This document shows positions 32,092 to 35,422 of a stretch of 64,000 nt of DNA, in pieces. The position numbers and the translations under genes were made by a program. The notes beneath the pieces were generated by a model. The model was not told where the DNA came from and ran no database searches. It worked only from the letters and a program-made list of their open reading frames with translations. This stretch comes from Alphaproteobacteria bacterium (GTDB lineage Bacteria > Pseudomonadota > Alphaproteobacteria > Rhodobacterales > Rhodobacteraceae). Every line of letters starts with the position of its first letter. Position 1 is the stretch's first letter. The stretch is taken from contig JAUHVK010000009.1 in assembly GCA_030425145.1 (NCBI GenBank), forward strand, positions 1-64,000, given 5' to 3'.

Positions 32092-32778
32092 ATGGCACAG
32101 CTCAAGAATATCCTTCTGGTCGATGACGATGACGATCTTCGCGAGGCTTTGGCCGAGCAACTGGTGATGACCGAAGATTTTGAAGTGTTCGAAGCCGATT
32201 GCGGTACCGCCGCGATGGGTCGGATCAAGGAACAGCTTTACGACCTGATCATTCTGGACGTCGGTCTGCCCGACACGGATGGTCGCGAATTGTGCCGCCT
32301 TATGCGCAAGCAGGGCGTAAAAGCTCCGGTCCTCATGCTCACCGGTCACGATTCCGATGCAGATACGATCCTTGGCCTTGATGCCGGGGCGAACGATTAC
32401 GTCACCAAACCGTTCAAGTTCCCGGTGCTTCTGGCCCGCATTCGCGCACAGCTGCGCCAACATGAACAATCCGAAGACGCTGTTTTTACGCTTGGGCCGT
32501 ACACGTTCAAGCCGTCGATGAAGCTCTTGATGACGGAAGACGACAAGAAAATCCGGCTGACCGAGAAAGAGACCAATATTCTGAAGTTTCTGTACCGCTC
32601 GACCGATGGTGTCGTTGCCCGCGATACGCTCCTGCACGAGGTTTGGGGCTACAATGCGGGTGTCACGACGCACACCCTCGAAACCCATATTTACCGTCTG
32701 CGACAAAAAATTGAACCAGACCCCTCCAACGCGCGTTTGCTGGTTACAGAGTCCGGCGGATATCGGCTCGTATCTTAG
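32092..32778 (+). CDS. cenR: OmpR-family response regulator, CenR-like
   Basis: The protein has 228 residues. The receiver (about 5-118) has the acidic pocket DDDDD, the phospho-acceptor in IILDVGLPDTDG and Lys in YVTKPFKFP. The winged-helix output (about 130-226) has RLTEKETNILKFLYRS, then EVWGYNAGVTTHTLETHIYRLRQKIEPDP. The length and wording closely match my memory of CenR of Caulobacter and Rhodobacter, an essential regulator of envelope and cell shape. The CenK kinase is not adjacent, as in Caulobacter. The name is by recall; another close OmpR paralogue is possible. Confidence 0.8.
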   Translation: MAQLKNILLVDDDDDLREALAEQLVMTEDFEVFEADCGTAAMGRIKEQLYDLIILDVGLPDTDGRELCRLMRKQGVKAPVLMLTGHDSDADTILGLDAGANDYVTKPFKFPVLLARIRAQLRQHEQSEDAVFTLGPYTFKPSMKLLMTEDDKKIRLTEKETNILKFLYRSTDGVVARDTLLHEVWGYNAGVTTHTLETHIYRLRQKIEPDPSNARLLVTESGGYRLVS

Positions 32779-32792
32779 GACCTTAGTCTATT

Positions 32793-32806
32793 TTGATTCA
32801 GATCAA
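32793..32806. promoter_or_regulatory. FnrL-type box (perfect)
   Basis: TTGATTCAGATCAA is an exact TTGAT-N4-ATCAA dyad, the FNR/FnrL consensus. It lies 15 bp after the cenR stop. Its centre (32799.5) is about 41 bp upstream of the predicted start near 32841, the class II activator position. TTTTAT at 32827-32832 fits a -10. Confidence 0.82.
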
Positions 32807-32840
32807 AGAAGCATGAGGAGCACATCTTTTATCTGGGCCT

Positions 32841-32922
32841 CAACGGTTCCCGTCGCATATGCGGGTTATCATATGCACCTCCCTGTTGGACCTGGCCCCG
32901 GAAGTTTCCGGGGTCTTTTTTT
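32841..32922 (+). ncRNA. Candidate FnrL-activated small RNA
   Basis: This is a predicted ~80-nt transcript between an FNR-dependent promoter and a strong terminator. It has an internal hairpin region around CCCGTCGCATATGCGGG and a likely unpaired CACCTCCCTG, which resembles an anti-Shine-Dalgarno seed. A reading frame crosses it (MRSTSFIWAS.. from 32812) but has no ribosome site and begins upstream of the predicted start. The FnrL-activated sRNA PcrZ in R. sphaeroides is a precedent; homology to it is not claimed. Confidence 0.6.
32896..32922 (+). terminator. Rho-independent terminator of the candidate sRNA
   Basis: Stem CCCCGGA-AGTT-TCCGGGG followed by TC and seven T. It is about 118 bp after cenR and would also end read-through from cenR. 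Confidence 0.9.
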
Positions 32923-33015
32923 GATGGATGCGGATATCGCTCACCGACACCTCAATGCCGAAGTCTCAACGTGTTTCGGCGTTCCCTGATACCCTGCATG
33001 GCATCTAGCCCGCGT

Positions 33016-33070: not shown

Positions 33071-35212
33071 TTACTCCGCGTCCTCAGCCTTTTTCTCGGG
33101 GGCCAGCTCTTCGCCGGTTTCCTGATCGACCATCTTCATGGCAAGGCGCACCTTGCCACGGTCGTCAAAGCCCAGAAGCTTCACGTAGACTTCCTGACCT
33201 TCCTTGAGCACATCCGACGGATGGTTCAGGCGGCGGTTTTCGATCTGGGACACGTGGACGAGGCCATCGCGCTTGCCAAAGAAGTTCACGAAGGCGCCGA
33301 AATCGACGATCTTCACGACCTTGCCCTTGTAGATCTGGCCCTCTTCCGGCTCTGCCACGATCGAATAGATCATGTCATAGGCCTTCTTGATGGCTTCGCC
33401 GTTCGGGCTGGCGATCTTGATGATGCCGTCATCATTGATGTCGACCTTGGCACCGGAAACTTCCACGATCTCGCGGATGACCTTACCGCCCGAGCCGATC
33501 ACTTCGCGGATCTTGTCGGTCGGGATCTGCATGGTCTCGATACGCGGCGCGTGGATCGAGAACTCGGCAGCGCCGGTCAGTGCTTTGTTCATCTCACCGA
33601 GGATATGCATCCGGCCATCTTTCGCCTGCGCGAGGGCCTTCTTCATGATCTCAGGTGTGATGCCCGCAACCTTGATGTCCATCTGCAGCGAGGTGATGCC
33701 GTTCTCGGTCCCTGCCACTTTGAAGTCCATGTCGCCAAGGTGGTCTTCGTCACCGAGGATGTCGGTCAGAACCGCGTAAGAGCCGTCCTCTTCGAGGATC
33801 AGGCCCATGGCCACACCGGCCACAGCGGATTTGAGCGGCACACCGGCGTCCATCATGGACAGGGAGCCACCGCAAACCGACGCCATCGAGGACGAACCGT
33901 TGGATTCGGTGATCTCGGAAACGACGCGGATGGTGTAGGGGAAATCGGTTGCCGCCGGCAGAACCGCCTGAAGCGCGCGCCATGCCAGTTTGCCGTGGCC
34001 GATTTCACGGCGACCCGGCGAACCTACGCGGCCCACTTCACCAACCGAGTACGGCGGGAAGTTGTAGTGCAGCATGAAGTTGGAGCGGAAGTTTCCGTGC
34101 AGTGCGTCAATGATCTGCTCATCGTCGCCGGTGCCGAGTGTTGTCACGACCAAGCCCTGCGTTTCACCACGGGTGAAAAGTGCAGAACCGTGCGTGCGCG
34201 GAAGAAGGCCTGTTTCGCAGACGATGTCGCGCACTTTATCCAGCGCACGGCCGTCGATCCGCTTGCCTGTCTTGACGACATCGCCACGCAGAACCGATGC
34301 TTCGAGCTTTTTCAGCGCGGAGCCGAGGTTGGCATCTTCAAGCTGCTCTTCGCTCAGCGCTTCCATGATCACTGCCTTGGCGTCTGCGACAGCGGCAGTA
34401 CGTTCCTGCTTGTCGGTGATCGCATAGGCTGCGCGGATCTTGTCTTCGCCTGCGGCTTTCACGGCCTCGTAGAGGTCCGAGTAATCCGGCGGCTGGAAGT
34501 CGAACGGCTCTTTCGCGCACTCTTCGGCCAGCGAGATGATGAGGTCGATCACCGGCTGGATCTGTTCGTGCGCAAATGTCACGGCGCCCAGCATCTCGTC
34601 TTCGGTCAGCTCGTAAGCTTCCGATTCCACCATCATCACGGCGTCTTTGGTGCCGGCGACAACCAGATCGAGGCGCTGCTCGGGGTTGTTGCGCAGCTGA
34701 TCCATATCCTCGACCTCGGGGTTGAGGATGTATTCGCCGTCGACATAACCCACGCGGCAGCCCGCGATCGGACCCATGAACGGCGCGCCGGAAATGGTCA
34801 AAGCTGCAGAAGCCGCGATCATCGCCACGATGTCGGGATCGTTGACGAGGTCGTGCGACAGAACGGTGCACATCACCAGAACTTCATTCTTGAAGCCCGG
34901 CACAAAGAGCGGGCGGATCGGACGGTCGATCAGGCGCGCGGTCAGCGTCTCTTTCTCGGTCGGACGCGCCTCGCGCTTGAAGAAGCCACCCGGCACTTTG
35001 CCCGCAGCGTAGTATTTTTCCTGGTAATGGACGGTCAGCGGAAAGAAATCCTGACCGGGTTTCGGCTGCTTGGCAAACGTCACGTTGGCCATAACCGAGG
35101 TTTCGCCGAGGGTGGCAATCACGCTGCCATCGGCTTGGCGGGCAACCTTGCCCGTTTCCAGTGTGAGCGTTTCTTCGCCCCACTGCATGCTTTTCGTCGA
35201 AATGTTGAACAT
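33071..35212 (-). CDS. pnp: Polyribonucleotide nucleotidyltransferase (PNPase)
   Basis: I chose ATG 35212 ([16 protein letters not shown]); the adjacent ATG 35215 is equally possible and AGGA lies upstream. The track adds 36 non-homologous residues. The protein has 713 residues: two RNase PH domains ([29 protein letters not shown] and [20 protein letters not shown]), a KH domain ([18 protein letters not shown]) and an S1 domain ([18 protein letters not shown]). It degrades RNA 3' to 5' using phosphate and is part of the degradosome. The C-terminal tail is acidic (EKKAEDAE). Confidence 0.98.
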
Positions 35213-35422
35213 CATCGTATCCTGTATGGGAGCACTCCCGGCCCTCCGGGTCTCCCGTTTGAATGGCGGCCCCATTGCCGCCGACCCCTTCATCCATGTC
35301 ATGCGCCGGGGTCGAAGCGTCACGTCTCAGATGAGGGGGCTGTACAGGTTTTTTGTCCCCATGGAAAGCACCTTAGGCAAAGGTGCCGTTTGGTTGCGGC
35401 GCCGATGGCAACGGGCCTAGCC

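Follow-up and report, generated by a model that had tools for sequence, protein, structure and literature searches.

The RNA encoded directly 3′ of cenR is SorX (Rfam RF02784), a known sRNA family, and this identity is secure. The element as a whole is quite probably the Marivita orthologue of this Hfq-type 3′-UTR sRNA, equipped with its own class II FnrL-type promoter in the cenR 3′ UTR. The family is known; the unexpected element is the apparently well-conserved promoter ahead of it, which is strongly supported by comparison between genomes and is putative as to its activity, its regulator, and its physiological sense. The literature treats SorX as an oxidative-stress sRNA processed from a 3′ UTR. 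The window analyzed here is the whole 64,000-nucleotide stretch of DNA, and its relevant features are listed below.

32092..32778, + strand: cenR, OmpR-family response regulator (Response_reg and Trans_reg_C domains), orthologue of R. sphaeroides RSP_0847
32793..32806, no strand assigned: FNR/FnrL-type box TTGATTCAGATCAA in the cenR 3′ UTR (sequence, shuffles, conservation)
32827..32832, + strand: −10-like element TTTTAT, 20 nt past the box (TTTA kept at such spacing across genera, the spacer not)
32839..32842, + strand: predicted start region, placing the box centre near −41.5 relative to 32841 (class II FNR geometry)
32848..32921, + strand: SorX sRNA, Rfam RF02784 (covariance model match)
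32876..32889, + strand: single-stranded core CACCUCCCUGUUGG, putative pairing region (predicted fold, conservation)
32894..32922, + strand: intrinsic terminator, GC-rich hairpin followed by T7
33071..35323, − strand: pnp, polyribonucleotide nucleotidyltransferase, convergent to cenR (TIGR03591, 1027 bits, cut-off 525)

The covariance match to RF02784 is full length (model positions 1–73), scores 66.7 bits (E 4e-14; gathering score 46.6), and is the sole above-threshold Rfam match in the 64-kb window. The RNA follows the end of cenR at 32778, and the encoded CenR is 83% identical to the one encoded by G094, the genome taken as R. sphaeroides 2.4.1. A sequence-only reading had described an sRNA directly after cenR with an exposed sequence, a strong terminator, and no supported ORF, and each of these points is borne out. 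The exposed CACCTCCCTG lies at 32876–32885, and the terminator hairpin and T run end at 32922. Stem 1 is paired in 98–102 of 102 sequences, and its compensatory types are numerous. A coding reading of the stretch was rejected because no frame is conserved: across 17 Marivita species, the sequence from box to SorX varies and contains single-base indels.

The window RNA agrees with SorX of R. sphaeroides (RSs2461) in sequence, in its two-hairpin structure, in the core CCUCCCUGUUGGA, in the terminator, and in its place after cenR (RSP_0847, which is CenR; PMC9275681). The CCUCCCUGUUGGA stretch is invariant in the Marivita alignment and is also common to SorY (RF02651), which shares the CCUCCCUGUUGGAC core with window SorX and matches at 34.3 bits, below its gathering score of 111. 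SorY differs in its 5′ hairpin, has its own promoter (PMC6238624), and does not lie at cenR. Three weaker matches to the SorX model occur elsewhere in the same genome as the window (G000:C50:64362-64435, C36:93427-93512, and C84:14135-14206) and are probably other CCUCCCUGUUGGA-type sRNAs.

The palindrome TTGAT-N4-ATCAA at 32793–32806, noted in the sequence-only reading, is indeed perfect, and the -10-like TTTTAT lies 20 bp past it as described. A perfect box arises in 0.065% of dinucleotide-preserving shuffles of the window UTR. The whole 4.9-Mb genome holds 14 perfect boxes and none of the reversed pattern, and several of these are at FnrL-type genes, with names assigned by sequence inspection: hemN/fnrL, ccoN-like, cox2-like, and a narK-like gene adjoining a Crp/Fnr-family gene. 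At locus L135 (G000:C105:22048), a gene resembling cytochrome c oxidase subunit II is preceded by a perfect FNR box with a SorX-like downstream sequence (ATCAAAGAAAGC...GCTTCTTTAAC). Between the cenR stop and the box, at 32779–32788, the window also contains GACCTTAGTC, a near-palindrome of the GACC-NN-GGTC type; it is retained in 15 of 17 Marivita species, is present also in L084, and is possibly a second regulator site.

The box recurs widely ahead of SorX. Among 102 cenR-linked SorX loci, comprising the highest-scoring SorX matches together with all of the genus, 44 carry TTGA-N6-TCAA in the UTR, while 200 dinucleotide shuffles give a mean of 0.17 and a maximum of 1. In a draw free of this selection, 84 of 390 genomes, from 32 of 139 genera, contain the box followed after 58–88 nt by CCTCCCTGTTGGA, and none contains the reversed pattern; a few of the matches are not SorX, e.g., G024, G115, and a second site each in G135 and G339. 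Named genomes, which share species with the unnamed set and so serve as a check rather than a fully independent sample, contain at least 119 stretches with the same box, spacing, and TTTA; among the matches listed, 111 of 119 are cenR-linked. Within Marivita, the box is kept in 16 of 17 species, the remaining one having TTGATTTGGATCAT, and conservation reaches 96% in the box and 85% in the -10, against 63–68% in the sequences from box to -10 and from -10 to SorX. More than half of SorX loci, including that of R. sphaeroides, are without a perfect box, which counts against the promoter model. Mapped onto a 102-row CenR tree, whose rows were picked partly by SorX score and whose branch support is moderate, the box distribution needs at least 18 changes versus 33.9 for shuffled labels; the box is phylogenetically clustered yet has been gained or lost many times.

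The position of the box ties it to SorX. In 29 loci, one of them from Marivita and the rest from other genera, the box ends 64–82 nt from the SorX core (SD 4.8), whereas its distance to the cenR stop is 2–78 nt (SD 22). The corresponding SDs in the named set, among the matches listed, are 4.7 and 23.5, the former distance being restricted to 58–88 nt by the search pattern itself. Even in long UTRs (136–159 nt), the box adjoins SorX. Since its distance is fixed to SorX and variable to the cenR stop, the box belongs to SorX. The palindromic box could in principle drive the opposite strand, giving an antisense transcript into the end of cenR; because its distance from the cenR stop is not conserved and the conserved -10-like element lies on the SorX side, this reading is hardly credible.

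A class II FNR promoter has its dyad at about −41.5 and its -10 about 22 nt past the box. A TTTA 20–22 nt past the box stands out from variable surroundings, and in 42 of 44 loci the best -10 match falls 19–23 nt past it (search range 14–29 nt, ties broken towards 21). The class II geometry proposed from the window sequence thus recurs, box and spacing together, ahead of SorX in about 30 genera. When +1 is set 35 nt past the box, the predicted start in most non-Marivita loci coincides with the SorX 5′ end; in the window it lies about 6 nt upstream of SorX (calculated from the distances above and the Rfam start). A class II FnrL promoter with such a start, level with the mature 5′ end or slightly before it, would therefore yield nearly mature SorX directly.

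The published model for R. sphaeroides derives SorX from cleavage alone: a cenR co-transcript initiated at an RpoHI/II promoter (PMC3320616) is cut by RNase E (PMC8625941, PMC6238624). Were the window SorX made only in this way from cenR read-through, the box would be incidental or serve another purpose, e.g., as a roadblock to read-through. UTRs of 34–61 nt (e.g., L110, L113, L115, L116, L119, and L121) are consistent with such an origin, in that they have no room for the box and lack it, so that SorX can do without a promoter of its own; these lineages probably depend on cenR transcription for SorX. A chance box, however, would not keep a constant distance to SorX, together with a matched -10, across about 30 genera, and a roadblock requires neither a -10 nor fixed spacing to the RNA 5′ end. 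Cleavage as the only source is therefore improbable for the window. The proposal of an FnrL-type sRNA unit after cenR is supported, with a correction: the RNA itself had already been described, and its published origin is not a separate unit but a cenR co-transcript processed by RNase E.

As to the regulator, the genome encodes FnrL (P0002; NF045989, 461.6 bits versus a cut-off of 300) with the N-terminal cysteine cluster CSECPIRHRAVCARC, and one perfect box is common to fnrL and hemN. It also encodes at least six Crp-family HTH proteins, so the activator is not fixable from sequence. The promoter could be real and respond to another Crp/Fnr-family activator of the Dnr/NnrR or CrpK type, the signal then being NO or redox rather than oxygen. 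This is rather unlikely: one perfect box does adjoin another Crp/Fnr-type gene (L127), but the SorX box is exactly TTGAT-N4-ATCAA, as at hemN/fnrL, and FnrL itself has been located at SorX in R. sphaeroides. There, ChIP-seq placed an FnrL site in the presumed RSs2461 promoter region, with an effect that the authors could not test (PMC4263372). The passages on SorX consulted in later papers do not take up this site. No sRNA or ompR/cenR target of FnrL was found in the main text of the FnrL papers on R. capsulatus and D. shibae, nor a link to SorX in the main text of the R. pomeroyi sRNA paper. The Paracoccus denitrificans sRNA paper reports sRNAs that share context with R. sphaeroides sRNAs, and none of them could be tied to SorX.

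With FnrL as the preferred activator, a drop in oxygen would lead FnrL (4Fe-4S) to bind 32793–32806 and recruit RNA polymerase at the -10 (32827–32832). Transcription would begin at about 32841, within a few nucleotides of the RNase E-generated 5′ end known from R. sphaeroides, and stop at 32922, giving nearly mature SorX of about 80 nt that needs no processing; cenR read-through and cleavage would still supply SorX as well. The exposed CACCUCCCUG would then pair with purine-rich translation starts and lower target expression. An active promoter, FnrL as its activator, and the role of the RNA in Marivita are all inferred here. In R. sphaeroides, SorX represses potA (PMC9438474); PotA-class ATPases number at least four above cut-off in each genome.

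The R. sphaeroides locus differs from the window, which has a perfect FNR box and a -10. Genome G094 is taken as R. sphaeroides 2.4.1 on the basis of its SorX position, which matches the published 2,598,224, and of its PufL, which is 100% identical to the query sequence. It has (L067, C4 about 2598148–2598182) only the degenerate TTGCGTGAGATCAA, overlapping the cenR stop, with TATAAA after 22 nt; its near relative G263 (PufL 95% identical) has the same TTGCGTGAGATCAA (L019). This degenerate box may be the site behind the FnrL ChIP-seq peak. The start predicted from it, at about 2,598,197, is some 15 nt off the reported pre-SorX 5′ end at 2,598,182 (PMC6238624). Impaired RNase E enriches that end, as the authors report for the SorY primary end (PMC6238624), so pre-SorX could be a primary transcript and its 5′ end may be a transcription start rather than a processing site. 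Singlet oxygen induces R. sphaeroides SorX (PMC8625941, PMC3320616), an oxygen condition opposite to the FnrL model that counts against it.

Two other sRNAs invite comparison. Enterobacterial FnrS, which is FNR-activated, resembles window SorX as a short terminated RNA directly 3′ of an FNR site, with low-oxygen induction expected; FnrS is free-standing, whereas SorX is 3′-UTR-encoded, their sequences are unrelated, and the Rfam scans gave no FnrS match. PcrZ of R. sphaeroides is under FnrL (and PrrA/AppA) control (PMC8307010), a likeness to the control proposed for SorX; it is a different RNA with its own locus and photosynthesis targets and was not found in the window. A broader reading, tentative and put at somewhat less than an even chance, is that SorX is the low-oxygen sRNA of Rhodobacterales, corresponding to FnrS, that its FnrL promoter, either ancestral or gained repeatedly, makes it without processing, and that the RNase E/RpoH route of R. 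sphaeroides is derived or parallel. An FnrL-type promoter conserved just ahead of the mature 5′ end in about 30 genera would make SorX also, or mainly, a low-oxygen RNA and would link the oxygen sensor FnrL to Hfq-type control. One sRNA would have two origins, primary transcription and 3′-UTR processing, that differ between lineages, and the ChIP-seq peak left open in 2014 would be accounted for.

At four further sites (G135:C1:289637, G339:C1:666441, L180, and L237), TTGA-N6-TCAA precedes another RNA, which shares the CCTCCCTGTTGGA core and has a GGTGATG...CATCATC hairpin; these may reflect chance or a second regulated sRNA.
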